Shown piece by piece: positions 2,351 to 31,410 of a stretch of 42,019 nt of DNA. How positions within the stretch are numbered: the first letter of the stretch is position 1; each line of letters begins with the position of its first letter. Made by a program: the position numbers and the translations under genes. Where the stretch lies: contig JAFRXO010000008.1 of NCBI GenBank assembly GCA_017443465.1, positions 1 to 42,019 of the forward strand. The letters run 5' to 3'. Under the pieces are notes generated by a model. It ran no database searches, was not told where the DNA came from, and saw nothing but the letters and a program-made list of their open reading frames with translations. Source of the stretch: Bacteroidales bacterium. Lineage in GTDB: Bacteria; Bacteroidota; Bacteroidia; Bacteroidales; UBA932.

Positions 2351-2483
2351 TTCCGCGGTGCAGGGTGTTGCCTGCGGACGCCCTCGCTTCGCTCATCCTT
2401 CCCACCGCTTCGCGGCGGGCCCCTCCCATTTACGCGGCCATGGGTGGCCACGGGCTCCGCAGGCAACACCCTGCACCGCGGAA
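2351..2483. repeat. Palindromic structured element, copy 1 (intergenic)
   Basis: A perfect 28-bp inverted repeat (2351-2378 and 2456-2483) encloses a 77-base core. The core holds TCGCTTCGCTC (2384-2394), a hairpin with an 8-bp stem carrying one mismatch (2401-2419), the motif GGGCCCCTCCC (2417-2427) and a small CCCAT/ATGGG hairpin (2425-2444). A second copy at 30293-30442 shares the two motifs and the same layout, although all stem sequences differ. It lies in the convergent gap between eno and the PorV-like gene and ends 10 bases from the latter's stop codon, so it may also end transcription on one or both strands. I do not recognise the family. Confidence 0.85.
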
Positions 2484-2493
2484 AGGGACAGGC

Positions 2494-3405
2494 CTAGAAG
2501 CAGTAGCCGAGGCCTATGGTCATGCTGTTTTTAAGGAGGTCAGAGCCAAAGAGATACGACATGCCAACCTTGACTCTATAGAACTTGACACCGACTCCGA
2601 CACTGGCGTAATCGGGGATGACGGACTTTCCGCCATATCTTGCACCTGCCCGGACGAAGACCATGTCATTGTAGCCATACTGCACACCGACGGCCGCCGA
2701 AAGCGCCCCGGAGAGCCACCAGTCAGCATCCAGGTCGCCCTCGATCGAATGGACCTCTGCGAAATCATATGCATATGCCAGTCCGAAAGCGATCGAAGTG
2801 GGGAGGCTGAAGCTGGCCCCGCTGTTGTCGGTGATGCTCGCTCCTATGGACCTAACTCCCAGGGCGACGTTCAGTCCCTTGTACTGTCCGGTAACGAACA
2901 CATCCCCTCCGAAAGCGGAATAAGAATAGTTCTCCAGCACCTTGGAGCTTGCGTACCTGAGGTTGACTCCCACTGACAGGAAATCGGCGACCCTGTAGGC
3001 TCCTCCACCGTTGACCTGGAGATCCGACGGAGTAAATGATGTACCGCTGACCTTCTCTCCAGCCTTTCCCGAAGAGAATCCAAGTGTCAGGCCGAAATTT
3101 CCGCTGTTGTAGGTACCGGCGAAATTATAGTAATCGGTAGGGAATGTCTCAGGCATCCATCTCAGCCATGTGCCCTCGATGTCAAGTTTCTTCTTCGAGA
3201 ACGGGATAGCTGCCGGATTCCCGAAAGAGGCATATGCCATATTTGAAGAAGAAGCGATCCCCGCACCGGCGAGGGAAGACTCGGCCAGGCCGCGCTCGAA
3301 CCTGATGAACGGAAGAGCCTCGCTGCCCGGTTCCACGGCAGCAGCCGCAGCTCCGACAGACAGGGCCGCAAGAGCGGACAATATATGTATAAGACTGATT
3401 CTCAT
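2494..3405 (-). CDS. PorV/PorQ-like outer-membrane beta-barrel protein
   Basis: This is a predicted outer-membrane barrel. The N-terminus is a signal peptide (residues 1-22, alanine-rich before VEPG). The rest is built of alternating amphipathic strands with many Gly, Tyr and Ala, ending in the aromatic tail GLGYCF that suits barrel assembly. The motif ASFGNPAAIPF near residue 60 resembles the NPA(G/A)L segment of PorV/PorQ and FadL-like proteins of Bacteroidota, where PorV is a type IX secretion shuttle. At 303 residues it is shorter than classical PorV (about 390), so I call it PorV/PorQ-like rather than PorV. It starts 5 bases after the stop of the upstream protease gene, which carries a type IX-like tail, so the two may act together. 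The start codon is embedded in CATATG. Confidence 0.72.
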   Translation of the reverse strand: MRISLIHILSALAALSVGAAAAAVEPGSEALPFIRFERGLAESSLAGAGIASSSNMAYASFGNPAAIPFSKKKLDIEGTWLRWMPETFPTDYYNFAGTYNSGNFGLTLGFSSGKAGEKVSGTSFTPSDLQVNGGGAYRVADFLSVGVNLRYASSKVLENYSYSAFGGDVFVTGQYKGLNVALGVRSIGASITDNSGASFSLPTSIAFGLAYAYDFAEVHSIEGDLDADWWLSGALSAAVGVQYGYNDMVFVRAGARYGGKSVIPDYASVGVGVKFYRVKVGMSYLFGSDLLKNSMTIGLGYCF

Positions 3406-3410
3406 ATGCT

Positions 3411-5927
3411 TCAGATTTTCGTTATGATCTTCTTGTACTCCTTCCCTCCCATTCTCACGATCAGGCTATAGCGCCCCGGAGCACAATCTTTCATATCAAT
3501 CTCCAGAGGCTCGAAGCCGCTGAACGTGCGAGTCTCTTCATATACGATCTTTCCGCTCGAAGACAGGATCCTTACATATGTTTCAGCCGGTTCGGCGGTC
3601 CGGATGGTTAGGGTGGAAGTCACCGCGGCAGGGATGGTTTCGACCGGATCGGCACTGTTCTTCACCAGTACCCTGAAACTGAACGAACCGGACTTCCCGT
3701 CCTCGTCGGTAGCGGTTATGGTGATGGATGAAAGACCGTAATCGACGGACCTGACCATCATCTCAGTAGTCTCATTGTTAATGCTGACGAAGGTCATCGA
3801 AGTGTTCTCCATGGCGAAACTGAAGGTTATCGGATCCTCGTCAGGATCAGCCATATAGGAAGAAAGGACCTCCGAGAATGAAGTGTTCTTGTCCCACAGG
3901 ATGCGGTCTTCGAACGGAGCGGTCTGCTGCGGGGCCCTGTTCTCCGGAGTAGCCACCGGTTTGACAGGCGAACTATCCGAGTACTTCATATGCGAGTCAT
4001 ATGCATAGACTGCGGCATAGTACTGGGTTGCATATTTAAGTCCCTGTATCTTCATGCTGACAGGGCTTCCTACCGGCAGGGTAGCGACTGACATCCTGGA
4101 GGTTATGAGGCTTGCATCCGGGGATATGGGGTTGCAGTTCTCCACGACGCTCCTGTCGGTCCCCAGGATGCAGAGCACTCCGAGGGCCTTTTCGTCATCC
4201 TCGTCGGCTGGCGTGTTGAAGGAGAAAGTGACGGTCTTGCGGTCCGGGGTGACGGTGAAATCCTCGATGCGGTCCGGGGCTATGTCATCCTTGAAGTCTA
4301 TTTCGATTCCGGCCTGTTCGAAGGCACCTGCTGCATCCAGCGCCGGTCCGACAGGATAGCGGCTGCTGATGTAGTCAGAGTTTGCTCCCTTGACGAGAGC
4401 GTCCTCCAGGTCCTTGTTGGTGAAATCAGGACCACCGAAGAGGGAAAGCACCAGGGCGGCTACGCCGGAAACATGAGGACAGGCCATTGACGTTCCGCCC
4501 ATGTAACCATAGCTTTTCCCGGAATACGGGTCATCGATGTTCATAGTCGGGGAGTAAGTGCTGAGGATGCTTCCGCGGCTGTATATGCCGTCATTCTCGC
4601 TGCCCCAGCCGGCACCGTAGTTGTCCCCTCCGGGAGCGCATATGTCCACCCAGTCCCCGTAGTTAGTATACCATGTCGGAAGCCAGTCGGGACCGATGGC
4701 GCCGACTGCGATTATCGGGTCGTAGTTGGCTGGGGCTCCGTTGGCTATCTGGTCGTTTCCTGCGGCGAAAATAACCACTCCGCCTTTCATCGGGGAATCC
4801 GGAAGCTGGTTGCCGTCATCGTCACAGCCGGCATATTTGATGAAATAGTCCACCGCAGCCTTGTCGACATCGGAAATCTTGTCTGCGAGGGCTTCTCTCC
4901 GTCCCTTTTCGGTCAGTTCCCCGTAGTCATCGCGATCGTAATCATAGCCCCAGCTGTTCTGGGAGATCACAGCCCCGTGGTCGGCTCCCCATTTGATGGC
5001 GTTGGCGGTACAATATTCATATGCATCGCTGTTATAGTAGGAATTGCCGAGGTCTTCATTTGGATCCTCGAAGATCTGGCAGCTCATCAGCTTGACTCCG
5101 CCCCTGCCTGCGGCATAGTCACCGCCTGCTATCCCCGCGATTCCGACCCCGTTGTTCCTGATGGCAGAGATTACTCCGGCGACGTGGGTCCCGTGGTCGC
5201 CCGGAGTGACCTTGTAGTAATTCTTCGGTTTGTCAGTAGCGAAATTGCGGCTGCCGTTCTCTCCTGCAGGGATGCAGTTTGCCATGAGGTCGGTGTGCTC
5301 CAGTTCTATTCCTTCGTCCACCACAGACACTATTACAGAAGGATTTCCGGTGGTGTAAGCTTCCCACACGTCCTTGATGTTTATGTCACAGCCCTCATTG
5401 GAAGACAGTATCCTGGAGCCGGAACGGATCGTAAGGTTCAGGGACTTGTCGTTGTAAATGTTCCACTGCCATTTGAAAAGAGGATCGTCCGGAAGGGCCA
5501 GTTTGCGGATCTTGCGCGGTTTTTCCACGGAAACCACTCCCGGAAGGGAATTCAGGGCAGTCTCCGCCTTGGTGACCTGGACGGCATCGGAGTACTTGAT
5601 GGTGTACCACCTGTGAAGACCTTCGCGCCTCGTACGTCCTTCATATTTTCCGGCATACGGGAAGACCCTCTCGTAGGAAACCACTCCCAATTCGTCTATG
5701 ACGTTGTTCACATCCATCGACCTGGTCATTACCTTTCCGTTCCCGGCAGCCTCTTCCAGCATGGAGACGGTCCGGTCATCGAAAAGGACGACCGAGCAGT
5801 CAGTCATGGTGACAACGGACTTTTCTTCCACCGCTTCGGGGACCGCGGCCAGTTCCTCCTTGGCGCACGAGGCAGCCAGGAGAATCATCAGCGCGGCCGA
5901 AGCATATGTTTTCATTCCAAATTTCAT
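3411..5927 (-). CDS. Subtilisin-like (S8) serine protease lipoprotein with type IX-like C-terminal domain
   Basis: A predicted surface or periplasmic serine endopeptidase of 838 residues. Residues 1-21 form a lipoprotein signal with the candidate lipid-bearing Cys21 in LLAASCAKEE. An inhibitor-I9-like propeptide follows (about 80-140), then the S8 catalytic domain with Asp204 (VVDEGIE), His245 (GDHGTHVAG), the oxyanion Asn391 (AAGND) and Ser480 (GGTSMACPH), so all catalytic residues are present. A fibronectin-III-like region (about 550-660) and a cadherin-like region (about 670-760) follow. The last 70 residues, ending GRYSLIVRMGGKEYKKIITKI, look like a type A sorting domain of the type IX system. 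Combining a lipobox and such a tail is unusual. It sits 5 bases after thiN and just before a PorV-like gene. Confidence 0.9.
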   Translation of the reverse strand: MKFGMKTYASAALMILLAASCAKEELAAVPEAVEEKSVVTMTDCSVVLFDDRTVSMLEEAAGNGKVMTRSMDVNNVIDELGVVSYERVFPYAGKYEGRTRREGLHRWYTIKYSDAVQVTKAETALNSLPGVVSVEKPRKIRKLALPDDPLFKWQWNIYNDKSLNLTIRSGSRILSSNEGCDINIKDVWEAYTTGNPSVIVSVVDEGIELEHTDLMANCIPAGENGSRNFATDKPKNYYKVTPGDHGTHVAGVISAIRNNGVGIAGIAGGDYAAGRGGVKLMSCQIFEDPNEDLGNSYYNSDAYEYCTANAIKWGADHGAVISQNSWGYDYDRDDYGELTEKGRREALADKISDVDKAAVDYFIKYAGCDDDGNQLPDSPMKGGVVIFAAGNDQIANGAPANYDPIIAVGAIGPDWLPTWYTNYGDWVDICAPGGDNYGAGWGSENDGIYSRGSILSTYSPTMNIDDPYSGKSYGYMGGTSMACPHVSGVAALVLSLFGGPDFTNKDLEDALVKGANSDYISSRYPVGPALDAAGAFEQAGIEIDFKDDIAPDRIEDFTVTPDRKTVTFSFNTPADEDDEKALGVLCILGTDRSVVENCNPISPDASLITSRMSVATLPVGSPVSMKIQGLKYATQYYAAVYAYDSHMKYSDSSPVKPVATPENRAPQQTAPFEDRILWDKNTSFSEVLSSYMADPDEDPITFSFAMENTSMTFVSINNETTEMMVRSVDYGLSSITITATDEDGKSGSFSFRVLVKNSADPVETIPAAVTSTLTIRTAEPAETYVRILSSSGKIVYEETRTFSGFEPLEIDMKDCAPGRYSLIVRMGGKEYKKIITKI

Positions 5928-5932
5928 TTCGC

Positions 5933-6595
5933 TTACGTGAGAATTATCAGGGCCATGCTCCTGTGGCTGAATTTCAGGAACACCCTGTCATCTGTACTTT
6001 TGTTGAGGCTGGCTTTCCACCAGTTGTCAAATACCACCGTCCCTACCTGATACTCAAGTCCTTCCGAGGTGATAGTCAAAGAGTTGTCCGGGGAGAATAT
6101 GGAGACCTGCCGGCCTTTGCCCGGCCAGAATTCCACCGAATCGCTTACCGGGAACGCAGTAGTGTAATCCGAGACCATGTCGATCCGGACCCCCCGCTCT
6201 TCCAAGTCGTACAGCCTGGTGTACTCCATCAACTGGCCCAGGTTGCCGACAGTGTGGTCTTCCCTCTTCCCTCCGGCCCCGAGGAAATGGATCGCCTCCA
6301 CATCCTTCAGGTTGTCCATAGCCCAGCGGAACGCCTTTGTCATGTCATTGTCATCCTGTTCGGCGACACGGAGGATCCGGGAAGCATATGTTTTTTTAAG
6401 GCTTGAGGACAGGGAGTCTATGTCGCCGATCACCAGGTCAGGCTCCCTCAGCCTTCCGAATATCTTCGTGCAGGCGCGCAGGTAGGGCTTCAGCGCTCCG
6501 TCACAGCATATGATGAAATCCGCCCTCGAAATGATATGGCGGGGATATTCCCGGCGAGGAAACTCGCCATCACATATGATTACGACTTCCATCAT
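5933..6595 (-). CDS. thiN: Thiamine diphosphokinase
   Basis: It transfers pyrophosphate from ATP to thiamine, giving the cofactor thiamine diphosphate. The 220-residue protein has the family motifs in order: CDGAL (about 31-35), the metal- and nucleotide-binding VIGDIDS (about 55-61), EQDDNDMTKA (about 79-88), and GAGGKREDHTVGNL (about 106-119), followed by the C-terminal thiamine-binding half with SLTITSEGLEY. The start overlaps the stop of the upstream LptF/G-Fmt gene as ATGA (6592-6595), which implies translational coupling. A second Met directly follows the first and could be used instead. It belongs to the alaS operon. Confidence 0.93.
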   Translation of the reverse strand: MMEVVIICDGEFPRREYPRHIISRADFIICCDGALKPYLRACTKIFGRLREPDLVIGDIDSLSSSLKKTYASRILRVAEQDDNDMTKAFRWAMDNLKDVEAIHFLGAGGKREDHTVGNLGQLMEYTRLYDLEERGVRIDMVSDYTTAFPVSDSVEFWPGKGRQVSIFSPDNSLTITSEGLEYQVGTVVFDNWWKASLNKSTDDRVFLKFSHRSMALIILT

Positions 6596-9036
6596 TGTCT
6601 GGTTTTAAGGATTTCAGCCTTGGATGTGCCCTTTGTGGCGGAGTAGGAGTCCGGTTCGCGGAAGCCGGCGAGGAAGGCCTTGACGGGCATCCGTTTCTTA
6701 CCTGAAAGCTGGACATCTTCGAGAAGGAGGGCACCGTCAGCGGTAGAAACCGCCATCCAGCTCTTTCCGTCTGAGGATATGCTTCCCGGGGCCAGGCCCT
6801 CAGGCACTAGGCCTTCAGGAGCTACTGAAGCAGAGTAGATCTTCAGCTGTACAGGGGCGGAACCATCTCTTACCAGCTCGGTGAATGCACACGGAAGGGG
6901 ACTCAGGCCTCGTATCAGGTTGTCGATCTGCCTTGCGGAGTCATCCCAGTCGATGTGGCAGAGTTCACGGGTCAGCTTGGGAGCCGGTTTCAGCACCTCT
7001 GCTCCCTGGATGAAGCTCCTCTGGATCCTGGTTTCCACATTGTGCTCTATGATTCCGGTGACAGTCTGTACCACCAGTTCGGAGCCGATTTCCATAAGGT
7101 GGTCATGGAGGGTCCCGGCGTTTTCCCGTTCATCCATGAGATATTCCTGGCGGAGTATGATTCCGCCGGTGTCTATGCTCTTGTCGATCATGAAGGTGGT
7201 GACTCCGGTCTGCCTCTCTCCGTTGATTATGCTCCAGTTGATCGGGGCGGCGCCACGATATTGCGGCAGGAGGGCGGCGTGGAGGTTGAATGTCCCCAGC
7301 TTGGGCATCTTCCAGACAGCTTCGGGAAGCATCCTGAAGGCTACTACCACGAAAATGTCACCCTTGAGGGCACTGAGTTCGGCGAGGAAACCTTCATCCT
7401 TGAGTTTCTCAGGCTGCATGACTTTCAGGCCATGCTCCACGGCATATTTCTTCACCGCGCTCTCATTCATCTTCAGCCCCCTTCCGACAGGCTTGTCAGG
7501 AACTGTTACGACACCGACAACCTTGTGTCCTGCCTTGACTAGGGCGTCGAGAGACGCGACTGCGAAGTCCGGAGTTCCGAAGAAGACTATCTTCTTCTTG
7601 ACTATCAGGCCTGCTACGCGGCTCTTGATCTGCCTCCATTTGGACTTGAAGCCCTCACCGGAGAACACTGCCGAGTCGTTCACCGCTTTCCATGTCAGGT
7701 AGAGTCCGGCCAGCATCAGGACGACACAGGCGGCGAAGGCTCCCGCGGCAGCGGAAACGGCTCCGTCCCTCGCCAGTTTGCTGCCGGTGATGTCCACTAC
7801 CCAGTAGAGCACGAAGAAGAGGATGGACGTGATAGCGGAAGAACCGAGCCCGCCCTTTCCGATCAGGGCTCCCAGCGGAGCTCCGATGAAGAACAGCACC
7901 AGGCATGCCAGCGCCCCTGAGAATTTCTTGAGGATCTCGAGGTCGCTCCTGCGGAGGACATATGTGTACTCATATACATCCCTGCCGTCGCTTTCCAGGA
8001 TGGAGGCGAGTCCGGAGGCTTTGCTGGACGCTTCGTTCAGCGCGTCCTGCTTCTGCTTCACGCTGTTCCACTCCATGAACTTCTCATCTTCGTAGGAACT
8101 CTGTACGCGGGCAGTCCACGCCGTGTCCAGCTGATTGCGGAACAAGAGCTCCTCGGCTCTCGCCACTCTGTCCATCTGGGCGGATTTTGCTGAGTCCTTA
8201 AGCACTGACAGTGAGTCGCTTCCATGGATAAGATTCTTCAGCGGCATGGTCTTCACCGCGTCGCTGTAGCGGGTGTCCTCAGACTTCTGGAAGGTGTAGT
8301 TCTTGAGCGGGATGATCAGGGTCTGGCGGTCGAAGAATATCCTCTGCATCTGCCGCGTGGTGTCCCTGTACTTCTGGACGTTGGTCTCCTCGTAATCCGC
8401 GCCGCTGTAGAGTTCGAAAGTCAGATAATCCTTACGCTTGGACATCTTCATGATGGCCGAGTCAGCAAGTACGAGAGAACTGTTCCCCTTGTTTCCGGTG
8501 TGGTCATAGACCATCACCCCGTACATCATTCCGGTCTTGTCGCTGTGGAAATCCACCCGGAGGATGTAGCCTTCGATGCCGTCGTAGAATGTTCCTGCCG
8601 GAATCTTGATCTCTTCCTTGGTCCTTCCGATGTCGTCCCTGAGGGTGTAGATCTTGTTGTAAGAGATCGGGACGAGGTTGTTCGCGGCAAAGAACGCCAG
8701 ACCGCATATGGCAAGGCAGGATGCGAAGATAGGGACCAGGACCCTTGTCAGCGGGACTCCCGCGGCCTTTATGGCTATGAGCTCATTGTTCTCGGTCATG
8801 CTTCCTACCGTCATCACGGAAGCCAGCATGGTGGCCAGGGGGAGTGCCGTGGGGAGGATCGTGCAGCTTCCCCACATTATGAACTCCAGGATGACACCCA
8901 GGGAGAGTCCCTTCCCGACCAGTTCGTCTATGTAAAGCCACAGGAATTGCATCATCAGGATGAAGATGACAATCATGAGGATTGCCACGAACGGCCCGAT
9001 GAAGGCTTTGAGGATGAACAGGTCGAGTTTCTTCAA
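6592..9036 (-). CDS. LptF/LptG-family permease fused to methionyl-tRNA formyltransferase
   Basis: A single 814-residue frame joins two normally separate proteins. Residues 1 to about 470 are a YjgP/YjgQ permease (LptF/G), a membrane part of the ABC machine that lifts LPS from the inner membrane: three N-terminal membrane segments, a periplasmic jellyroll-like middle, and three C-terminal membrane segments. From residue 479 (VKKKIVFFGTPDFAVASL) it is Fmt, which formylates initiator Met-tRNA, with HAALLPQYRGAAPINW and the catalytic aspartate in DKSIDTGG. The codon where Fmt normally begins is GTC, and the next Met is inside the folded domain, so separate initiation looks unlikely. The LptF/G C-terminus is cytoplasmic in the family, which places Fmt correctly. 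The next gene, thiN, overlaps by ATGA. Confidence 0.88.
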   Translation of the reverse strand: MKKLDLFILKAFIGPFVAILMIVIFILMMQFLWLYIDELVGKGLSLGVILEFIMWGSCTILPTALPLATMLASVMTVGSMTENNELIAIKAAGVPLTRVLVPIFASCLAICGLAFFAANNLVPISYNKIYTLRDDIGRTKEEIKIPAGTFYDGIEGYILRVDFHSDKTGMMYGVMVYDHTGNKGNSSLVLADSAIMKMSKRKDYLTFELYSGADYEETNVQKYRDTTRQMQRIFFDRQTLIIPLKNYTFQKSEDTRYSDAVKTMPLKNLIHGSDSLSVLKDSAKSAQMDRVARAEELLFRNQLDTAWTARVQSSYEDEKFMEWNSVKQKQDALNEASSKASGLASILESDGRDVYEYTYVLRRSDLEILKKFSGALACLVLFFIGAPLGALIGKGGLGSSAITSILFFVLYWVVDITGSKLARDGAVSAAAGAFAACVVLMLAGLYLTWKAVNDSAVFSGEGFKSKWRQIKSRVAGLIVKKKIVFFGTPDFAVASLDALVKAGHKVVGVVTVPDKPVGRGLKMNESAVKKYAVEHGLKVMQPEKLKDEGFLAELSALKGDIFVVVAFRMLPEAVWKMPKLGTFNLHAALLPQYRGAAPINWSIINGERQTGVTTFMIDKSIDTGGIILRQEYLMDERENAGTLHDHLMEIGSELVVQTVTGIIEHNVETRIQRSFIQGAEVLKPAPKLTRELCHIDWDDSARQIDNLIRGLSPLPCAFTELVRDGSAPVQLKIYSASVAPEGLVPEGLAPGSISSDGKSWMAVSTADGALLLEDVQLSGKKRMPVKAFLAGFREPDSYSATKGTSKAEILKTRQ

Positions 9037-9057
9037 ATCAGTCTGTTATTGGTCAGG

Positions 9058-11679: not shown

Positions 11680-11713
11680 TGTTTAGTGACTTTTCAGGTG
11701 TTCTTAAAGTTTG

Positions 11714-11721: not shown

Positions 11722-11743
11722 CAACTTTTTAGGGAGAAAACAG

Positions 11744-21573: not shown

Positions 21574-22158
21574 ATGTCTAAAATGCAACTCATAACAAAG
21601 GGCTTTGTCAAGGACAATCCTACATTCGTACTCCTCCTTGGAATGTGCCCCACCCTGGCTACCACCACATCGGCAATCAACGGACTGTCGATGGGACTTG
21701 CCACCTTGTTCGTCCTCGTGCTTTCCAACATGGCCATATCACTTGTGGCCAAGGTTACTCCCGACAAGGTACACATCCCGGTTTACATAGTTGTGATCGC
21801 TACCTTCGTTACGGTGCTTCAGCTCCTGATGCAGGCCTTCACCCCGGCGATTTACAGCGCCCTGGGAGTGTTCATCCCCCTGATCGTGGTCAACTGCATC
21901 ATCCTCGGCCGTGCTGAAGCATTTGCCAGCAAGCACAATGTGATCGACTCGGCACTCGACGGAATAGGGGTCGGCCTCGGCTTCGTGGTTTCTCTCACAG
22001 TGATCGGAATCGTCCGCGAAATCCTCGGCAGCGGTTCTGTCTTCGGTTGGAAATTCATCACCGGCGACGGAATCCTCGCCTTCATCATGGCTCCGGGAGC
22101 CTTCCTCGTTCTCGGCTACCTGATGGTCCTGTTCAATAAGTATCTGGCCAAGAAATAA
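21574..22158 (+). CDS. rnfE: Rnf complex subunit E, membrane subunit
   Basis: A 194-residue integral membrane protein with six hydrophobic segments, homologous to NqrD. The early segment NPTFVLLLGMCPTLATTTSAING carries the family's conserved cysteine, and the second half has VVNCIILGRAEAFASKHNV with the partner cysteine; the two help hold the intramembrane Fe2S2 site shared with RnfA. The start codon lies in CATATG. It is followed after 12 bases by rnfA. Confidence 0.96.
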   Translation: MSKMQLITKGFVKDNPTFVLLLGMCPTLATTTSAINGLSMGLATLFVLVLSNMAISLVAKVTPDKVHIPVYIVVIATFVTVLQLLMQAFTPAIYSALGVFIPLIVVNCIILGRAEAFASKHNVIDSALDGIGVGLGFVVSLTVIGIVREILGSGSVFGWKFITGDGILAFIMAPGAFLVLGYLMVLFNKYLAKK

Positions 22159-22170
22159 AGCTGAACCGCT

Positions 22171-22788
22171 ATGATGGAAATACTTCTGATAATCGTATCG
22201 GCGATATTCGTCAATAATGTCGTCCTCGCCCAGTTCCTGGGCATATGCCCCTTCCTCGGAGTCTCCAAGAAGACCTCCACGGCAGCCGGAATGAGTGCGG
22301 CGGTCTGCTTTGTGATCACTTTGGCCACCCTTGTGACCTATCTGCTCAACAAGTACCTGCTTCTGCCCACCGGCATATTCAAGGTTGACCTGACCTTCCT
22401 TCAGACCATCCTGTTCATCCTGGTGATCGCAGCCCTTGTCCAGATGGTTGAGATAGTGCTCAAGAAGAGCGCTCCGTCGCTCTACCAGGCCCTCGGAATC
22501 TACCTTCCGCTCATCACCACCAACTGCGCAGTCCTCGGTGTCGCCATCAATGTTGTGACCAAACAGTTTACATTCGGCGGCGCTCCGCATATGCTCGGTC
22601 TCGGTGACGCGGTTATATATGCCTTCGCTACATCACTGGGCTACGGTCTCGCAATGATCCTGTTCTCGGGTCTCCGCGAGCACCTCGAGCTCAACGATGT
22701 CCCCAAGGAGTTCAAGGGACTTCCGATCGCCCTCATCACCGTCGGCATCCTCGCCATGGCGTTCATGGGCTTCTCTGGAATAGCTTGA
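22171..22788 (+). CDS. rnfA: Rnf complex subunit A, membrane subunit
   Basis: A 205-residue integral membrane protein, homologous to NqrE and paralogous to RnfE with inverted topology. It has the signature FVNNVVLAQFLGICPFLGVS (residues 13-32) and the matching LITTNCAVLGVAI, supplying the remaining cysteines of the shared Fe2S2 centre. It is the last rnf gene. The pigment cluster's ammonia-lyase starts 6 bases after its stop with no room for a separate promoter, so transcription probably continues into that cluster. Confidence 0.97.
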   Translation: MMEILLIIVSAIFVNNVVLAQFLGICPFLGVSKKTSTAAGMSAAVCFVITLATLVTYLLNKYLLLPTGIFKVDLTFLQTILFILVIAALVQMVEIVLKKSAPSLYQALGIYLPLITTNCAVLGVAINVVTKQFTFGGAPHMLGLGDAVIYAFATSLGYGLAMILFSGLREHLELNDVPKEFKGLPIALITVGILAMAFMGFSGIA

Positions 22789-22794
22789 TAGGGG

Positions 22795-24330: not shown

Positions 24331-24333
24331 GTT

Positions 24334-25677
24334 ATGGAACTCTTCCCCGATCTTGAAAAGAGGTACACCAAGGATGTGTACTCGGCCCGTGAGGCGCAGC
24401 GGATGGCGGAACTCATCGCATTCGGTCCGGTCGTCTTCCAGGCCTCCCGCCTGATGGTCAAATACGGAATCCTGGACCTGTTGAGGGACGCTCCCGGGGG
24501 ACTTACCCAGGAAGAGATCGCAACGAAGGCAGGAATTTCCCCATATGCAGCCAAATGCCTCCTGGAGGCATCGCTCAGCATAGGCCTGGTCCTGGTGGAC
24601 ACCGCTACCGACCGTTTCACCATCTCCAAGGTCGGCTGGTTCCTCCTGACCGATCCGGCCGCAAGGGTCAACATGGACTTCAACAACGACGTCAACTACG
24701 AAGGTTTCTTCAAACTGGACGAATCTTTCAGGGAAGGCCGTCCGGCCGGACTGGAGCATTTCGGGCCATGGAGCACCATCTACGAAGGACTGTCCCAGCT
24801 TCCGGAGGATGCCAGGAAGAGCTGGTTCGCATTCGACCACTTCTATTCCGACAACTCCTTCGACGCTGCACTGGACATAATCTTCTCCTCCCCGGTGGCG
24901 CATATCCTCGACGTGGGCGGCAACACGGGCCGCTTCGCCCTGAAGTGTACTGCAAGGGATCCGGAAGTGAAAGTGACCATCCTGGACCTTCCGCAGCAGA
25001 TCCGGACCATGCAGCAGGAGACCGCCTCGAAACCCGGAGCTGACCGCATCTCGGGGTATGGGATGGACCTCCTCTCCGACGCTCCTTTCCCCAAGGGAGC
25101 ATATGACGTCATATGGATGAGCCAGTTCCTGGATTGCTTCGCTCCGGACCAGATAGTCTCGATCCTCCGCCGGGCCGCCGACGTCATGACCGAGGACACG
25201 AGGCTCTGTATAATGGAACTGCTCTGGAACCGCCAGCGTTTCGAACCTGCAGCACTCTGCCTTACCCTGACCTCGCTCTATTTCACTGCTATGGCCAACG
25301 GTAACAGCAAGATGTACTACTCCAAGGACCTGACGGACCTTGTGGAAGAGGCGGGACTCGAGGTAGAAGAGATCCATGACGGGATCGGCCAGGGGCACAA
25401 CATCCTGGTCTGCAAAAAGAAAAGTGGAAAAGATATGATATCGCAAAGGGAAATAACCGAGAAAGTAAATGCCTTCTTCGTCGAGGAATTCGAATTGTCC
25501 GAAGAAGAGCTAAAGCCGGAAGCAAATCTGCGCAAGGACCTTGGAATAGACAGCCTTGATGTGGTTGACGTTATAGTCCTCGTGGACAGGGAATTCGGAG
25601 TGAAGATCACCACCGAAGAACTGAAATCACTTGTCACCCTCTCCGACCTTTACGCTTTCATCGGATCCAAACTTTAG
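24334..25677 (+). CDS. SAM methyltransferase fused to acyl carrier protein
   Basis: A 447-residue bifunctional protein. Residues 1 to about 360 are an O-methyltransferase-2-like enzyme: an N-terminal winged-helix dimerisation part (LTQEEIATKAGISPYAAKCLLEA) and a Rossmann SAM-binding domain with motif I ILDVGGNTGRFAL. Residues 368-447 form an acyl carrier protein with the phosphopantetheine serine at Ser407 in LGIDSLDVVDV. In related clusters these are usually separate genes. The ACP part begins at an in-frame Met (25435) after a lysine-rich linker, so internal initiation could also yield a free ACP. The likely role is methylating the aryl ring while the chain is ACP-bound; this is inference. 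It lies 3 bases after the ammonia-lyase gene. Confidence 0.88.
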   Translation: MELFPDLEKRYTKDVYSAREAQRMAELIAFGPVVFQASRLMVKYGILDLLRDAPGGLTQEEIATKAGISPYAAKCLLEASLSIGLVLVDTATDRFTISKVGWFLLTDPAARVNMDFNNDVNYEGFFKLDESFREGRPAGLEHFGPWSTIYEGLSQLPEDARKSWFAFDHFYSDNSFDAALDIIFSSPVAHILDVGGNTGRFALKCTARDPEVKVTILDLPQQIRTMQQETASKPGADRISGYGMDLLSDAPFPKGAYDVIWMSQFLDCFAPDQIVSILRRAADVMTEDTRLCIMELLWNRQRFEPAALCLTLTSLYFTAMANGNSKMYYSKDLTDLVEEAGLEVEEIHDGIGQGHNILVCKKKSGKDMISQREITEKVNAFFVEEFELSEEELKPEANLRKDLGIDSLDVVDVIVLVDREFGVKITTEELKSLVTLSDLYAFIGSKL

Positions 25678-25679
25678 CT

Positions 25680-26558
25680 GTGGAAGCAAAAGAAGTCAAG
25701 TGGCAGGGGAGGACGGACGGAACTCCTTTCATGCACAGGGCCCTTATAGCTTTGTGCAAGGTACTGCCGCTGGAAATAATGTACTTCTTCATGGCCACGG
25801 CCATCCCTTTCTATCTGGTTTTCAACCATAAGGGCTATATCTCCATCTACCATTATTTCCGCCGCAGGCTCGGACGCGGACCCATATGGTCCTTTTTCAG
25901 TGTCTGCTACAACCATCTGGTTTTCGGGAGTGTAGTCATTGACAAGTTCGCCTGCTACGCCGGAAAGCGTTTCAAGACCCGCATCATGCACAAGGAGATC
26001 ATCGACTCCCTCCTGGCTTCTGACAAGGGATTCGTGATGGTAGGCTCCCATGTAGGGAACGGAGAGATGGCAGGCTTTTCTTTCAACTCTCCCAAGAGGG
26101 TCAACTCCCTGGTGTACGCCGGTGAGGCATCCGATGTAATGGCTTCAAGGAGAGATACTTTCGCCGCACACAACGTGCGCATGGTGCCCGTATCCGACGA
26201 CATGTCGCATATGTTCACCCTGTCGTCTGCGATCCGTGACGGAGAGGTCGCATGCATATACGGGGACCGGGTCTTCAGCTCCTCCCGGAATGTGCGCCTG
26301 CCCTTCATGGGCGCTGATGCAGATTTCCCGCAGGGGCCTTTCGCCCTTGCCGCGTCGATGGGCGTCCCGGCCATCTCGGTCTTCGTAATGAAGGAAGGTA
26401 TAAGGAAATACCGCATATGGCTCTATGAGATATCTTCCGGAGGCGGAAGCCGCAGCGATGTGATCGAGGGCATGGCGGACTGCTATGCCGGAGACCTGGA
26501 GGGAGTCCTTCACAAGTATCCTTCGCAGTGGTTCAATTTCTATGAATTCTGGGGATGA
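25680..26558 (+). CDS. LpxL-like lysophospholipid/lipid A acyltransferase
   Basis: A 292-residue membrane-associated acyltransferase. The catalytic H-X4-E motif is seen in GSHVGNGEMAG near residue 122, with the later substrate-binding FPQGPFALAASMGVPAI typical of the lauroyl-acyltransferase family. Such enzymes occur in aryl polyene and flexirubin clusters, where they probably attach the polyene chain to a lipid. The frame starts with GTG at 25680, 2 bases after the preceding stop; the next Met is 17 codons in, still before the core, so the exact start is uncertain. It overlaps the next gene by 4 bases (ATGA). Confidence 0.87.
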   Translation: MEAKEVKWQGRTDGTPFMHRALIALCKVLPLEIMYFFMATAIPFYLVFNHKGYISIYHYFRRRLGRGPIWSFFSVCYNHLVFGSVVIDKFACYAGKRFKTRIMHKEIIDSLLASDKGFVMVGSHVGNGEMAGFSFNSPKRVNSLVYAGEASDVMASRRDTFAAHNVRMVPVSDDMSHMFTLSSAIRDGEVACIYGDRVFSSSRNVRLPFMGADADFPQGPFALAASMGVPAISVFVMKEGIRKYRIWLYEISSGGGSRSDVIEGMADCYAGDLEGVLHKYPSQWFNFYEFWG

Positions 26559-27037
26559 ACGGACTGAGGTACATCGAGGGCGAACCTTTCGACTTCGCCG
26601 CTGTCAGGATCGGGGAAATCCTTCCCCAGCGTCCTCCGGTGCTGGTAGTGAGTTCACTGCTGAGTCACTGCGCGGATGAAACCGTCACTTCTTTCACCGT
26701 AGGGGAGGACAACGTCTTCTTCGACCCCGCGCGGGGATTCTGCGCCGAAGGCCTCATGGAAAATGCGGCCCAGACCTGCTCCGCACGGATAGGCTTCATC
26801 AGCAAGTACGTCGAGAACCGTCCCGTAAGCATAGGCCTGCTCTGCCGCATCCGCAATTTCACAGTCCACTGCCTTCCTTCAGTCGGGGATGCGCTTCTCA
26901 CCAGCGTCAGCGCAACGGCTTCTGTCGGTCAGATGACCATATTCAGGACCAGGACTTTCCGCGGTCCGGAGCTCATTGCCGAAGGCGAACTGGCCGTCGC
27001 CGAGTCCGACCAGGATTCCGAGGAGAGTGCCATATGA
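26555..27037 (+). CDS. Hotdog-fold 3-hydroxyacyl-ACP dehydratase-like protein
   Basis: A 160-residue single-hotdog protein. The central helix segment GLMENAAQTCSARIGF (about residues 65-80) matches the acidic helix of FabZ/FabA enzymes, keeping the glutamate. The usual GHFPxxP loop with the catalytic histidine is absent, replaced by FFDPARGFCAEG. A related non-canonical form occurs in aryl polyene clusters to my knowledge, so I infer that it dehydrates hydroxyacyl-ACP intermediates to make the polyene; it could also be a scaffold or partner. The start overlaps the acyltransferase stop (ATGA), and its own stop overlaps the next start. Confidence 0.8.
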   Translation: MNGLRYIEGEPFDFAAVRIGEILPQRPPVLVVSSLLSHCADETVTSFTVGEDNVFFDPARGFCAEGLMENAAQTCSARIGFISKYVENRPVSIGLLCRIRNFTVHCLPSVGDALLTSVSATASVGQMTIFRTRTFRGPELIAEGELAVAESDQDSEESAI

Positions 27038-28764
27038 AAGGCCGTCCTGCATATATAGTTGCAGACAACATCATATCTCCGCTGGGTACCGGGTCCTCGG
27101 AGAATTACCGCCGGGTGCTCGCAGGTGAATCCGCGCTCAGGCTCCACAGCGGGGTCGGGATAGGAGTCTCGGAAGACTATCAGGCATCCCTCATGGATGA
27201 GGAGTCGGACGGGACCGGCATGATCCCGGGTGATTACACCCTGTTCGAAAAAAGGCTGATCCTCTCGGTTTCCAAAGCCCTTTACAAGGCCGGATGGATC
27301 GAGCCGTCTTCTGACAAGGTCCTCTTCATTGTCTCATCCACGAAGGGCAACATCGGCGGCCTTCTCGGGGAATCCGCCCGCAAGGTTGCCAGATTCTTCG
27401 GGAACAAAGTCTCACCTCTGGTTGTGTCAAATGCCTGTATATCAGGACTCTGCGCTCAGATTGAAGCGATGCGTGCCCTTAGTTCGGGCCGTTTCGACCA
27501 TGTGGTTGTCTGCGGCTCCGACATCCAGTCCAAGTTCATAGTCTCCGGATTCCAGTCCTTCAAGGCTCTTTCTCAGCAGCCATGCCGTCCGTTCGATTCT
27601 TCCCGTGACGGACTCAACCTGGGAGAAGCCGCTGCGACAATGGTATATTCCTCCGTCCTCCCCGACGAGGCATATGCTTCGGCGCCTGGTGGGAAAATCT
27701 GGATTGCGGAAAGGGGAGCGATACGCAATGATGCGAACCACATCTCGGGCCCTTCCAGAACCGGAGAGGGCAGCTACAGGGCCCTGAAGGCAGCATTGGG
27801 AGATTTCCCGGCAGCCGACCTGGCTTTCGTCAACCCCCATGGGACCGCCACGCTCTACAATGACGAGATGGAGTCCATAGCCATCACCCGTGCCTGTCTT
27901 GGAAGCGTTCCGGTCGCAGGATACAAAGGCTATTACGGACACACTATGGGAGCCGCGGGGCTTATCGAGACCATCATTTCGATGAGAGCAGTTGAAAATC
28001 ATATGATTCCGGGGACAAGGGGCTTTAATCAAAACGGGGTCTCATGCCCGCTGGACATTTCATCTTCGCCCCGTCCTACGGACAAGGACTCTTTCGTGAA
28101 GCTCCTGTCCGGATTCGGAGGATGCAATGCTGCAGTCTTGTTCACCCTGGCAGACGCCCATTCTGTTGCCGGGTCACAGTCCGCACCCGTGGCCTCGGCT
28201 CATCCCTCTTTGGAGTACCTTCACAGAGTGCACATATCTCCCGATGGTGTCGAGCTGGACGGAGAGCCACTGGAGGCCGGAGGGAATGGAGAAGAACTGC
28301 TGACCGACATTTACAGGCGCTGCATCGGGGACTATCCGAAATTCTACAAGATGGATCCTCTATGCCGGCTGGGTTTCGTGGCCTCGGAACTGCTTACCTC
28401 CGCTGAAGGGAAATCTCCCGAAGGTCGGGAAGACCGAGCCGTAATCCTCTTCAACAGAAGCGCTTCCCTGGCTGACGACAGGATCTATCTGGACACTGTC
28501 TCCGGCCCGGACAATTATTTCCCGAGCCCCAAGGTCTTCGTCTACACCCTTCCGAACATCGTCACCGGGGAGATCGCCATCCGTAACAAGTATTACGGGG
28601 AAACTTCCTTCCATGTACTGGATGAGAGGGATGATGAGGTAATCGAGAACGTGATCATGCAGGCACTTGCCGAGCCGGGGACAGAATCTGTCCTCGGAGG
28701 GTGGTGCGAGTGTTCCTCCCCGGACGACTTCGAGGCTGACATGTTCATATGCAAAGCTTTGTAA
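27034..28764 (+). CDS. 3-oxoacyl-ACP synthase with extra C-terminal domain
   Basis: A 576-residue protein. Residues 1 to about 385 are a ketosynthase with a full catalytic set: Cys135 (SNACISGLC), His269 (NPHGTATLYND) and His303 (YYGHTMGAAG). Residues from about 405 to 576 form a second region that includes DIYRRCIGDYPKFYKMDPLC, FVYTLPNIVTGEIAIRNKYY and VLGGWCEC; it resembles short ketosynthase-like proteins encoded separately in flexirubin-type clusters, without a second active site I can see. The protein likely extends the aryl-primed chain. Its start lies in CATATG and overlaps the previous stop. A promoter for the next gene overlaps its stop. Confidence 0.87.
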   Translation: MKGRPAYIVADNIISPLGTGSSENYRRVLAGESALRLHSGVGIGVSEDYQASLMDEESDGTGMIPGDYTLFEKRLILSVSKALYKAGWIEPSSDKVLFIVSSTKGNIGGLLGESARKVARFFGNKVSPLVVSNACISGLCAQIEAMRALSSGRFDHVVVCGSDIQSKFIVSGFQSFKALSQQPCRPFDSSRDGLNLGEAAATMVYSSVLPDEAYASAPGGKIWIAERGAIRNDANHISGPSRTGEGSYRALKAALGDFPAADLAFVNPHGTATLYNDEMESIAITRACLGSVPVAGYKGYYGHTMGAAGLIETIISMRAVENHMIPGTRGFNQNGVSCPLDISSSPRPTDKDSFVKLLSGFGGCNAAVLFTLADAHSVAGSQSAPVASAHPSLEYLHRVHISPDGVELDGEPLEAGGNGEELLTDIYRRCIGDYPKFYKMDPLCRLGFVASELLTSAEGKSPEGREDRAVILFNRSASLADDRIYLDTVSGPDNYFPSPKVFVYTLPNIVTGEIAIRNKYYGETSFHVLDERDDEVIENVIMQALAEPGTESVLGGWCECSSPDDFEADMFICKAL

Positions 28765-28789
28765 CGCTGGAATTATTTTGTTATGTTTG
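28758..28789 (+). promoter_or_regulatory. Internal promoter of the pigment cluster
   Basis: A full Bacteroidota promoter: -33 TTTG (28758-28761, touching the ketosynthase stop codon), a 20-base spacer, and -7 TATGTTTG (28782-28789). It precedes the ACP gene by 30 bases and would allow the ACP, ketosynthase fusion and later genes to be expressed apart from the rnf-lyase transcript. Confidence 0.7.
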
Positions 28790-28819
28790 TCCTAAGTGTG
28801 GACATGAAAAACAACTCAT

Positions 28820-29080
28820 ATGGAAGAACTTAAGAACGAACTGAAGCTGAAGATCATCGATGTCCTGAACCTCGTGGATCTCAAGGCGGAGGACATAGTG
28901 GACGATGCCCCTCTGTTCGGGGACCTCGGACTGGGACTGGATTCCATCGATGCCCTTGAACTCATCCTCTTGATGGAGAAGGACTATGGAATCAAGCTCA
29001 AGGACGCCTCAGAAGGCAAGGCTATCTTCCAGTCCATCAACGTGATGGCGGATTATATTATGAAGAACCGCACCCGTTAG
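28820..29080 (+). CDS. Acyl carrier protein
   Basis: An 86-residue free carrier protein with the phosphopantetheine attachment serine Ser42 in GLGLDSIDALEL, in the usual four-helix context (VLNLVDLKAEDIVDDAPLF before it, YGIKLKDASEGKAIFQS after it). It is the second carrier of the cluster, besides the ACP fused to the methyltransferase; two distinct ACPs suggest separate roles such as starter loading and chain extension. The start codon lies in CATATG downstream of a good promoter. The ketosynthase gene follows after 11 bases. Confidence 0.95.
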   Translation: MEELKNELKLKIIDVLNLVDLKAEDIVDDAPLFGDLGLGLDSIDALELILLMEKDYGIKLKDASEGKAIFQSINVMADYIMKNRTR

Positions 29081-29091
29081 AAGGACCTTCG

Positions 29092-31410
29092 ATGCCGCGT
29101 TCTGTCCTGATTACCGGAGCCGGAGTCATTTCGGCCATAGGCACCAGCAAGGGCGAGACTTTTCGGTCACTTACCGAAGAGCGCTCCGGAGTGTCTTTTC
29201 TCAGCGTACTCAGGACCGAGCATTCAGACCTGCCTTGCGGTGAGGTGCAGATGTCCAATGAGGAGATTTCCGAGGCTCTCGGAGTCGGTGGCGGAATTGC
29301 TTCGCGTGCGGCTCTTCTGGGCATATGGGCGGCAAAGGAAGCCCTGATCCAGGCCGGTCTTCTCATTGACGGAGGAATGGATCCGTCAGGACGCCGGGTC
29401 GCTTTTATCAACGCGACTACGGTAGGTGGAATGGACATTACAGAGAAGCATTGGTTGGAGTATCTTGAAGGCCGGGAAGGTTCCTCAAGGCTCGTCCCCC
29501 TTCACGATTGCCGTGGCTGCACCATGCAGATTGCGGATTATTTCGGAGGGTTCAGCTACATTTCAACTGTCTCAACCGCCTGTTCTTCAGCAGCAAACGC
29601 CATAATAATGGCTGCGTCCCTGATACTTAGCGGGAATTTCGACATAGTTGTAGCGGGGGGTACGGAGAGTCTGACCAGGTACCATCTGAACGGCTTCAAT
29701 TCCCTTATGATCCTGGACAGTGAGAGGTGCCGTCCATTCGATGCATCCCGTGCCGGACTGAATCTCGGTGAGGGTGCAGGCTACCTTGTCCTGGAGTCTT
29801 CGGACTCGGCGGCTGGCAGGGGAGCCAGTGTCCTGGCGGAGCTCAGCGGCTGGGGAAATGCGTGCGATGCCTTCCATCAGACGGCTTCTTCGGATGATGG
29901 AGAGGGGGCCTTCAGGGCTATGGAAGAAGCTCTTTCGTCTGCAGGGCTTACTCCGGTCGACATCGGGTACATCAATGCGCACGGGACGGGAACTCCGAAC
30001 AATGATGCGAGCGAGAGCGCTGCTCTGAGACGTGTTTTCGGCGATGAGGTTCCGCCTGTTTCTTCTACGAAGGCCTACACCGGTCACACTACCAGTGCCT
30101 CCGGCGGTATTGAAGCGGTCATATGTCTGCTTGCCCTTGAGAATCAGTTCCTTCCGGTGAATCTGGGTTTCAGTGAAGCTTTCGAAGGGGGCATAGTGCC
30201 GGTTACAGGTTCCGAGGTTTCTGCTCCGCTGAAGCATGTGCTTTGCAATTCTTTCGGTTTCGGCGGAAATGATTCTTCACTGTTGATTTCTGCTGTAGGC
30301 GATTATGGTCCCGGGAGTGCTGTCAGGGGTGTCTCCGGGTCGCTTCGCTCCTCCCTCCCATCCTTCCGGATGGGCCCCTCCCTCTTTGGCCGAGGGCGGA
30401 CAACCATCGACACCCCTGACAGCACTCCCGGGATCGCCACAGGAATCTACATACTCTCCGCCAGCCAGATATCAGCCCAGGAACCACTCTCCGAAGACTG
30501 GATCGACAACCCGGAAATCCCCGAAGGAAAATACGTCCGTGCAAAAGACCCGCAGTGGCGCGACCACCTCAATCCAATGCTCTCCCGAAGGATGGGAATG
30601 CTGATGAAGAGGACCCTCGTAACATCCTTGGCGGCAATGGACGCAGCAGGGAACCGGCAGCCCGACGCCATAATCACCGGAACCGGCCTCGGCTGCATGG
30701 AAAGCACCGAGCGCTTCCTCAGGAAGATGCTCACTGAAGGGGAGTCACTCCTGAGCCCCACCGACTTCATGCAGTCCACCCACAACACCCTGAGCTCCCT
30801 GATCGCCATCCAGACAGGCAACCACGGCTACAACTGCACCTGGTCGCACGGAAACATGTCCTTCGAATCGGCCCTCGTGGATGCTGTGGTCAGGATGCGC
30901 TTAGGACAGACTGGCACCGCTTTGGTAGGATGCCATGACGAATGTACTCCCGACACCTTCAAAGTCCTTGAAAATGCCGGACTTACGGATGGCCTGAACG
31001 TTCCGTGCTCAGAAGGTTCCGCAGCCTTGCTGATCTCCAGTGGAACCGGCGTTGCACCGGAGGGCGCACTGTGCGGGATTGCCGGCCTCACCGTACTGGA
31101 AAATCCCACGGACACCCAGCTGAAGGAAACAGTCGGATTACTCAGTGCAAAGGACGGAGGATTCGATCTTGTGATGACCGGAGAGAACGGGAGGAACGCC
31201 CGGGCATATGACCGGGTCCTGGACATGATCGGGGTCGGCGGCACTTTCAGGTACAAGGCCCTCTTCGGAGAAAGCATGGCCGCATCTGCTCTCGGAACAT
31301 ATGCCGCGGCGAAGCTGATCGCTCGTGGGCAGGCACGCAATGTCCTTCTGGTCAATCAATTTGAGGGAAAAACATGGTCATTCACCCTTCTTAAAACCCT
31401 AGCACGATGA
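29092..31410 (+). CDS. Ketosynthase joined in frame to a chain-length-factor-like ketosynthase by a palindromic element
   Basis: An open frame of 772 residues. Residues 1 to about 402 are a FabF-type ketosynthase with Cys164 (STACSSAANA), His297 (NAHGTGTPNND) and His332 (YTGHTTSASG). Residues 403-450 are encoded by a palindromic repeat (30293-30442) and look like linker. Residues about 452-772 start with IYILSASQISAQEPLSEDW, the usual N-terminus of the separate ketosynthase-like partner in flexirubin/aryl polyene clusters, and lack the Cys-His-His set, as chain-length factors do. No start codon lies at the expected second-gene start; the nearest in-frame ATG (30370) is inside the element. So it is either a true fusion or two proteins with a start inside the repeat. 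Its stop overlaps the next start (ATGA). Confidence 0.85.
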   Translation: MPRSVLITGAGVISAIGTSKGETFRSLTEERSGVSFLSVLRTEHSDLPCGEVQMSNEEISEALGVGGGIASRAALLGIWAAKEALIQAGLLIDGGMDPSGRRVAFINATTVGGMDITEKHWLEYLEGREGSSRLVPLHDCRGCTMQIADYFGGFSYISTVSTACSSAANAIIMAASLILSGNFDIVVAGGTESLTRYHLNGFNSLMILDSERCRPFDASRAGLNLGEGAGYLVLESSDSAAGRGASVLAELSGWGNACDAFHQTASSDDGEGAFRAMEEALSSAGLTPVDIGYINAHGTGTPNNDASESAALRRVFGDEVPPVSSTKAYTGHTTSASGGIEAVICLLALENQFLPVNLGFSEAFEGGIVPVTGSEVSAPLKHVLCNSFGFGGNDSSLLISAVGDYGPGSAVRGVSGSLRSSLPSFRMGPSLFGRGRTTIDTPDSTPGIATGIYILSASQISAQEPLSEDWIDNPEIPEGKYVRAKDPQWRDHLNPMLSRRMGMLMKRTLVTSLAAMDAAGNRQPDAIITGTGLGCMESTERFLRKMLTEGESLLSPTDFMQSTHNTLSSLIAIQTGNHGYNCTWSHGNMSFESALVDAVVRMRLGQTGTALVGCHDECTPDTFKVLENAGLTDGLNVPCSEGSAALLISSGTGVAPEGALCGIAGLTVLENPTDTQLKETVGLLSAKDGGFDLVMTGENGRNARAYDRVLDMIGVGGTFRYKALFGESMAASALGTYAAAKLIARGQARNVLLVNQFEGKTWSFTLLKTLAR
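30293..30442. repeat. Palindromic structured element, copy 2 (in coding sequence)
   Basis: A perfect 24-bp inverted repeat (30310-30333 and 30409-30432) surrounds a 75-base core. Pairing continues outward after a 6-base bulge (GGCGAT 30298-30303 with ATCGCC 30433-30438) and again with CTGT/ACAG. The core shares TCGCTTCGCTC (30340-30350) and GGGCCCCTCCC (30372-30382) with copy 1. Its hairpins CCCATCC-TTCC-GGATGGG and CCCTC/GAGGG occupy the same places as copy 1's hairpins but with different paired bases. It is open in the reading frame of the ketosynthase gene and joins two domains. Confidence 0.85.

Follow-up and report, generated by a model that had tools for sequence, protein, structure and literature searches.

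The two palindromic elements in the window, that is, the whole analysed stretch of 42,019 nucleotides of Bacteroidales DNA, were two members of a dispersed repeat, and 24 copies of it were found in the same genome with a covariance model. With a probability of roughly 80%, the element is a non-autonomous mobile palindrome working like the Rickettsia palindromic elements (RPE). The unit was approximately 130 bp long and consisted of a near-perfect outer stem, which varied in sequence from site to site, enclosing a conserved core. As empty and filled alleles of rsmA were both found, the arms and the core together constitute inserted DNA.

Palindromic elements in the window

Seven inverted repeats with arms of at least 18 nt located no more than 300 bases apart were found in the window. 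Copies 1 and 2 ranked at the top, and the remaining five were 74–81% complementary. Table 1 summarizes the features of both copies. Copy 1 agreed with the original prediction in position, in its perfect 28-bp arms, and in its core of 77 bases, and the covariance model matched it at 2367–2467 with 94.2 bits. It was intergenic, lying between the enolase gene (end at 2282, with a terminator-like hairpin after it) and a convergent gene (end at 2494). Copy 2 was diverged, with a covariance-model score of 54.3 bits. It was real and had the expected core of 75 bases, but the range of 30293–30442 given to it earlier was too long at both ends, and its arms were 25 bp rather than 24 bp. The motifs common to both copies and the hairpin pairs changed on both sides matched their earlier description. 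In contrast, ATGGT, which had been taken as a shared trait preceding the element, was located no more than 8 bases from the 5′ end in only 2 of 118 copies.

Table 1. Coordinates of the palindromic elements and their parts in the window
Feature	Position	Strand	Basis or remark
Palindromic element copy 1	2351–2483	+	Sequence, inverted repeat, covariance model
Copy 1, 5′ outer arm, 28 nt	2351–2378	+	Sequence and inverted-repeat search
Copy 1, TCGCTTCGCTC	2384–2394	+	Common in the genus; partly absent in two more distant copies
Copy 1, hairpin 1, CCCACCGC / GCGGCGGG	2401–2419	+	Differs from copy to copy
Copy 1, pseudoknot	2425–2452	+	Read from sequence; covariation
Copy 1, stem S1	2425–2429 with 2440–2444		
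Copy 1, stem S2	2433–2439 with 2446–2452		One mismatch
Copy 1, 3′ outer arm, 28 nt	2456–2483	+	Perfect complement; sequence and inverted-repeat search
Open frame, 772 aa	29092–31410	+	Copy 2 separates its two ketosynthase domains, in frame
Palindromic element copy 2	30309–30433	+	Inverted repeat, covariance model
Copy 2, 5′ outer arm, 25 nt	30309–30333	+	Inverted-repeat search
Copy 2, hairpin 1, CCCATCC / GGATGGG	30357–30374	+	Sequence
Copy 2, pseudoknot	30380–30403	+	S1 30380–30384 with 30392–30396; S2 degraded (one mismatch)
Copy 2, 3′ outer arm, 25 nt	30409–30433	+	Inverted-repeat search

The position of copy 2 within an open frame had been overlooked in the original prediction. The junction was readable in 12 relatives: in nine of them the first ketosynthase had its own stop, and in three (L146, L148, and L149) the ketosynthase frame was continuous without any element. 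As these three were fused in the absence of the element, the idea that copy 2 caused the ketosynthase fusion was weakened.

Size and distribution of the family

In the source genome, the exact two-motif pattern was matched eight times and its reversed-pattern control zero times. Together with the 24 covariance-model matches, this shows that the family is no chance result. The covariance-model search, which had been proposed as a check, also yielded further copies in relatives. Within one Bacteroidales genus of the gut and rumen, the element is widespread: 32 of 37 genomes, the source genome included, were carriers, with 0–41 copies per genome, and none of 24 genomes of other families had it. 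In a survey of Bacteroidales, at least 5 of 393 genomes (again including the source genome) were carriers, four of them outside the genus; this count is a floor, with 10 candidates scored per genome. Since the contig scan demanded exact motifs, the motif invariance in the rows of alignment A1 from L022 on was partly built in, while the copies of the source genome, obtained from BLAST and model searches, were free of this bias.

Phages and plasmids were rejected as vectors, because the exact pattern was found in no viral contig and in no phage, and in plasmids it was found in three records, every one Azospirillum, over 36 bases. When a 60-base core query was used with E up to 1, 554 plasmid records were matched, and the 40 matches listed were from Azospirillum and others at 47–70% cover, plus enterobacterial 23-base matches.

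Conserved fold of the core

The core contained a variable hairpin, GGGCCCCTCCC, and an H-type pseudoknot, and it had a conserved fold with covarying pairs, those of the pseudoknot among them. Across 59 copies, 83.7% of 1985 cells were paired, compared with 37–47% when the pairing was slid, and the covariation score was 0.401 against a slid maximum of 0.140. Stem S1 was paired in every cell, and its pair 65–79 was GC in 37 copies, AU in 16, UA in five, and GU in one. As a matter of structural judgement, S1 and S2 may alternate instead of coexisting, because a one-base loop spans a five-pair stem. The second small hairpin described originally was present, but it was really one half of this pseudoknot, which had been overlooked. 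Moreover, TCGCTTCGCTC, previously regarded as a constant motif, was non-essential, as nine positions there were absent in L352 (genome G524) and L349 (G426); L348, another G524 copy, retained the segment. Stop codons were no rarer in the core than its composition predicts, with 3.93 open frames in each copy compared with 4.03 after shuffling. The proposed conservation of the fold was supported by the covariation in the 59 copies. In the long outer stem, however, covariation is not necessarily a sign of selection on a fold, because template switching homogenises the arms and flips the spacer, and core flips were observed here.

Insertion into genes

All of the 30 best rsmA loci were in frame. 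The core was located in eight of them, four per orientation, and a remnant in one further locus; the script called four forward and one reverse, and three reverse ones were called by eye. In the two-flank test, where the same protein was matched on both sides of a copy, at least 33 of 158 copies lay within conserved genes, in either orientation. Six of the 33 were left out because they were judged solely on the antisense shadow of rsmA, and the 27 assessable on the right strand all kept the frame and were free of stops. The ORF queries of this test were biased toward genes that are in frame somewhere, whereas the rsmA search was free of that bias. With looser settings, 37 copies were obtained. 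Of these, 23 kept the frame and had no stops, and another 10 kept it but had stops; seven of the 10 lay on the rsmA shadow, and the remaining three were stop-free between flanks in the stricter run. The last four were in different frames (three weak matches and one on the rsmA shadow). Among the host genes were those for enzymes that modify rRNA and tRNA, for ATP synthase, and for enzymes of the shikimate pathway, and in RsmA and AtpG one Pfam match each bridged the insert. Intergenic copies, including copy 1, were seen as well. It had previously been overlooked that many copies are in-frame gene inserts.

Some of the in-gene sites recurred across species; thus, the distribution is partly vertical. 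At the site of copy 1, the core motif was absent 3′ of enolase in all 29 other loci, of which four had less than 700 bases downstream and one contained 130 N. The original suggestion of foldback mobile DNA was borne out by the dispersed copies, the empty and filled alleles, and the sites not common to other species. The comparison with empty sites proposed alongside it succeeded in part: empty alleles were found for rsmA, but a DNA-level empty site was not found in a close relative of G016, where the best relative was 75% identical among the matches listed, with 56 genomes unscored. When the G016 copies were inspected by eye, no target-site duplication stood out.

Arm turnover and core flipping

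In rsmA, the core was flipped between related arms (L221 versus L218 and L226), and the inner arm of L221 was like that of L218 at 15 of 18 positions by eye. The core was likewise flipped in ygiQ (L073 versus L120, 15 of 18 alike). In genome G016, the cores of L263 and L263b differed at 3 of 118 inner positions, but the arms were alike at only 9 of 22, with 22 of 22 positions paired within each arm pair. A third G016 copy was less stark, as L264 differed from L263 at 11 of 118 inner positions and the arms were alike at 14–16 of 22. Despite their general variability, arms were common to some sites and subfamilies.

Template switching at inverted repeats is described as homogenising the arms and inverting the spacer (PMC8604942, PMC8794818), and both of these predicted outcomes were found, namely, near-perfect arms and the rsmA and ygiQ flips. 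Core flips and arm turnover look like replication template switching, and they are the surprising part of an otherwise known kind of element. They also warn that covariation in a long stem can reflect mutation bias and not RNA function. Cases that would fit arms derived from the target (EamA L125) were no more than suggestive. A tentative and rather doubtful extension is that the mobile unit is the pseudoknotted core alone, with arms formed anew by template switching at each new site instead of being inherited, and a core that keeps flipping in living genes. If so, the mobile element would be defined by its folded tip and not by its ends, and it would make its own palindrome after landing.

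Mechanism and alternative explanations

For a mobile palindrome of the RPE kind, a putative enzyme acting in trans would recognise the core folded as single-stranded DNA or as RNA and would insert new copies. Insertions that break genes would be lost, while in-frame loops of about 40–50 residues would be tolerated and translated. Replication template switching would keep the drifting arms complementary and could flip the core, and arms would consequently become unrelated between sites with the core unchanged.

Movement as a REP/REPIN-type repeat by a genus-encoded RAYT (Y1 HUH transposase) is unlikely. A RAYT-like ORF was found in the source genome (22.1 bits, cut-off 23) and matched in 29 of 37 genus genomes versus 1 of 24 others, and S2 read GT[AG]G...C[TC]AC in 22 of 59 copies, resembling the "double foot" REPs described for TnpA subclass 2.4 (PMC6006769). 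However, the GT[AG]G tag was paired within S2 with no unpaired foot, and it was located at unit ends in 16 of 118 copies. The 20 RAYT loci had just one strong and one weak element, and RAYTs were present without the element in G009 and G010; G622 and G703 had RAYT-profile matches, with no element found. Among the five element-bearing genus genomes lacking the ORF match, the RAYT profile gave nothing in G013, G030, and G031 and weak matches in G014 and G022, and it matched none of the four element-bearing genomes outside the genus. The Rayt-like partner suggested originally was searched for and fitted poorly, with few elements at RAYT loci and carriers without RAYT. RAYT was rejected as the main mover, given the poor co-occurrence and repeats not flanking RAYT genes, and was kept as a rival. 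A classical MITE, whose terminal inverted repeats are the recognition sites of an IS transposase, would also be small and dispersed with inverted repeats at both ends, but it is very improbable. Contrary to what a MITE would show, conservation was highest in the centre and lowest in the terminal arms, and no obvious target duplication was seen by eye in the G016 copies.

A structured RNA that works as a cis-regulator, small RNA, or ribozyme, with a fold maintained by this function and dispersed copies that are genuine regulatory sites, would agree with the covarying pseudoknot pairs and with several copies of the source genome located, by eye, directly downstream of genes. It is decidedly unlikely, as the positions were not conserved, as seen downstream of enolase, and both orientations were found inside unrelated genes. 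When the whole window was searched with Rfam 15 at gathering score, only 5S rRNA was matched; under a relaxed limit, copy 1 had 10 matches, all far under their cut-offs (the best, a miRNA hairpin, 33.7 versus 98 bits). A known Rfam family was dismissed, as neither copy had a gathering-score match. An insert removed from mRNA or bypassed in translation, and thus silent in the protein (intron- or byp-like), is hardly credible. The folded unit does lie inside conserved genes and its long stem would join its ends, but all eight filled rsmA alleles read and all 27 other assessable copies were in frame and stop-free, which counts against removal because removal would require neither.

Returning to the mobile palindrome, its rsmA site was filled, flipped, decayed, or empty across species, so that movement of the element and its tolerance or use by the host protein become testable by comparison. 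Because its copies often lie in frame within conserved genes, the element is a test case for selfish DNA rewriting proteins.

Comparison with known systems

In-frame mobile palindromes are best known from the intracellular Rickettsia and Wolbachia, and also from enterobacterial repeats and REPs. Judged by description, the closest known kind is the RPE, to which the Wolbachia elements are related. Both are likewise described as dispersed long stem-loops of about 105–150 bp, located between genes and, in frame, inside conserved genes for proteins (PMC10969869, PMC2229807), and in the account of a CGTC-tagged class holding two RPE families, no dedicated transposase was seen (PMC3733652). In contrast, the Bacteroidales element occurs in another phylum, and it has a core with a covarying pseudoknot that flips in place. 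Its arms are unrelated between sites yet pair almost perfectly, while the repeats of Rickettsia elements are said to become less identical over time (PMC6649704). The CGTC tag reported for R. conorii RPEs (PMC3733652) was found near the 5′ end, or as GACG near the 3′ end, in just 12 of 118 copies.

REP/REPIN repeats with RAYT are also palindromic, dispersed, and at times intragenic in frame (PMC6006769), but the present element is longer (about 130 bp versus 20–65 nt), lacks the unpaired foot tag, and does not flank RAYT genes. The coding palindromes of Nematomorpha mitochondria are similar in having perfect inverted repeats within coding genes, with template switching proposed for their upkeep, but as described they apparently lack a shared core and are not a single element present in scattered copies (PMC6649704). 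Template-switch mutations share the arm homogenisation and spacer inversion (PMC8604942); however, they are a mutation process and not an element, and here they would act on a mobile unit.

Structure of the element

Both palindromic elements of the window ranked top among its seven stem-loops with arms of at least 18 nt. Copy 1 was present where it had been predicted, and copy 2 exists, but its boundaries had to be corrected. A covariance model recovered 24 copies in the window's own genome, where the exact two-motif pattern gave eight matches compared with none for the reversed-pattern control. Arms were located in 129 copies, namely, 13 of the 16 anchor-fitting own-genome loci together with every one of 116 strict matches from a genome scan that holds at least that many. 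The element runs from an outer arm of approximately 20–40 nt through TCGCTTCGCTCATCC, hairpin 1, GGGCCCCTCCC, and a pseudoknot (stems S1 and S2) to the complementary arm.

The fold was evaluated on an alignment of 59 of these 129 copies, chosen by excluding near-duplicates and any copy that lacked the standard core end. Paired cells amounted to 83.7%, compared with 37–47% in slid controls. S1 was paired in 100%, with GC, AU, and UA exchanges, followed by S2 (92%), hairpin 1 (84.6%), and the outer helix (73.4%), in which 13 of 14 pairs showed double-sided change in some copy.

Several variants were observed. Nine positions of the TCGCTTCGCTC segment were absent from L352 (genome G524) and L349 (G426), while the segment was present in L348, another G524 copy. 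L047, L053, L086, L101, and L130 all have an additional segment (GTCTCTTCGAGAC..CCCCAGGGGACA..) of approximately 50 bases within the loop of the pseudoknot. Genome G016 contains 16 closely similar, probably recent copies (L248–L262); in this subfamily, hairpin 1 is longer, and the copies often adjoin another GC-rich repeat. The long palindrome around the core of L061, whose arms measure 109 nt or more and are perfect up to the contig end, reflects either an artefact of assembly or outward growth of the arm.

Coordinates of the copies
Feature	Coordinates	Remark
Copy 1	2351–2483	
Copy 2	30309–30433	corrected boundaries
L284, second in-gene copy of the window's own genome	G000:C29:51511–51608	in frame
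L061	L061:1–318	contig start

Insertion into genes

Empty and filled alleles were compared at rsmA. The query was the C-terminal part alone, so the search could not favour any particular state of the N-terminal linker. This query matched 140 of 151 genomes, and the best 30 loci, which were read, were all in frame. The distance from LGQHF to LEIGPG was 81–90 nt in empty alleles and 198–336 nt in eight core-bearing alleles; thus, the arms and core are extra DNA. Four further alleles of 138–156 nt contained a remnant (L228), a second repeat or its traces (L220 and L224), or other sequence (L244). Four forward cores and one reverse core were assigned by script, and three more reverse cores (L231, L241, and L245) and the remnant by eye. 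Breaks in rsmA matches near query residue 138–167 (G069, G109, G009, G070, and G027) suggest further insertions elsewhere in the gene. A second GC-rich palindromic repeat (GAGCGAAGCGACGCAGGGGGTTTCGGGGGGAACGCCCCCC...) occurred once each in nine loci (L219, L223, L224, L039, L048, L056, L060, L127, and L027) from L022–L137 and L218–L247, several copies sitting in frame in the rsmA linker. Downstream of enolase, the site of copy 1, an exact-motif search over at most 700 bases found the core motif in none of 29 other loci, four of which gave just 292–532 downstream bases and one of which contains 130 N.

In-gene insertion was determined for 158 copies (116 of the at least 116 scan matches, 20 of the window's genome, and 22 of G023). 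The same protein flanked both sides in 33. Six of these, assessed solely through a shadow frame antisense to rsmA, were set aside, and all of the other 27 kept the frame without a stop. For L056, L057, L127, and L298, which matched on both strands, the strand of the recognised gene was used. Host genes, as predicted by sequence reading, include aroE, tilS, aroB, ygiQ, hemW, rsmE, trmB, prmC, a SpoU-type methylase, and an EamA transporter. Pfam, run on eight proteins including the window ORF, confirmed RsmA, AtpG, a radical SAM protein, AroE with shikimate kinase, TilS (PP-loop), AroB, ketosynthases, and EamA. Within aroB, L086 apparently holds material from two elements, and L295 a reversed, diverged copy. 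Both orientations occur in genes; thus, the element is read in several frames. No stop depletion of the core was found relative to expectation from composition, and because core stops match composition, tolerance of the insert comes from high GC, not design.

A 772-aa ORF, a predicted fusion protein, carries copy 2 in frame between its two ketosynthase domains. Of 15 loci from relatives, 12 had a readable junction. In nine, the first ketosynthase ends in its own stop; in three (L146, L148, and L149), the ketosynthases are fused in one frame without an element motif within 500 bases. Since these relatives are fused element-free, copy 2 either sits in such a linker or made it.

Arm turnover and the mover

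The original prediction took covariation in the stems as pointing to selection on the fold. Pairing of the outer stem was upheld, but its covariation need not mean selection, as template switching could give the same outcome. At inverted repeats, template switching makes the two arms alike and turns the spacer around (PMC8604942), and it can create and maintain stems (PMC8794818). Accordingly, outer-stem covariation was taken as showing pairing rather than selected function. In rsmA, L218, L221, and L226 have related arms, but the core of L221 is reversed. In ygiQ, L073 is reversed relative to L120 and L108, and 15 of 18 inner arm bases are alike between L073 and L120. In G016, 3 of 118 inner positions separate L263 from L263b, but their arms match at 9 of 22 bases, every arm being fully paired with its partner; the contrast is weaker for a third copy, L264 (11 of 118 differences; arms 14–16 of 22 like L263).

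A RAYT-like protein had also been suggested as a partner to look for. Such a gene occurs in most genomes of the genus (29 of 37), yet 20 of its loci showed no association with the elements, and a RAYT profile matched none of four element-bearing genomes outside the genus.

Distribution and comparison with known repeats

The element was found in 32 of 37 genus genomes, compared with none of 24 from other families. In a Bacteroidales survey, at least 5 of 393 genomes matched, own genome counted, a floor because 10 candidates per genome were scored; two genus genomes scored empty there. Of the carriers beyond the genus, one belonged to another genus within the family and the rest to three further families. 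The exact pattern matched no viral contigs or phages searched. The 80 scan matches listed were Bacteroidales or Bacteroidia MAGs, mostly from rumen and gut, and included Candidatus Cryptobacteroides caccocaballi and Candidatus Cacconaster scatequi; we infer that the window's genus is GTDB Cryptobacteroides.

The family appeared undescribed in the accessible literature on Bacteroidales/Bacteroidetes palindromic elements, in-frame palindromes, Cryptobacteroides repeats, and RAYT/REP, including PMC10969869, PMC6649704, PMC2229807, PMC6006769, and PMC3733652. CGTC repeats are reported in Bacteroidetes (PMC3733652). Intergenic repeats of Azospirillum plasmids (L338–L343; model score 27–37 bits) match hairpin 1 and its flanks at 34 of 36 bases, with no match to the outer arms or pseudoknot, and this likeness reflects either common origin or convergence.
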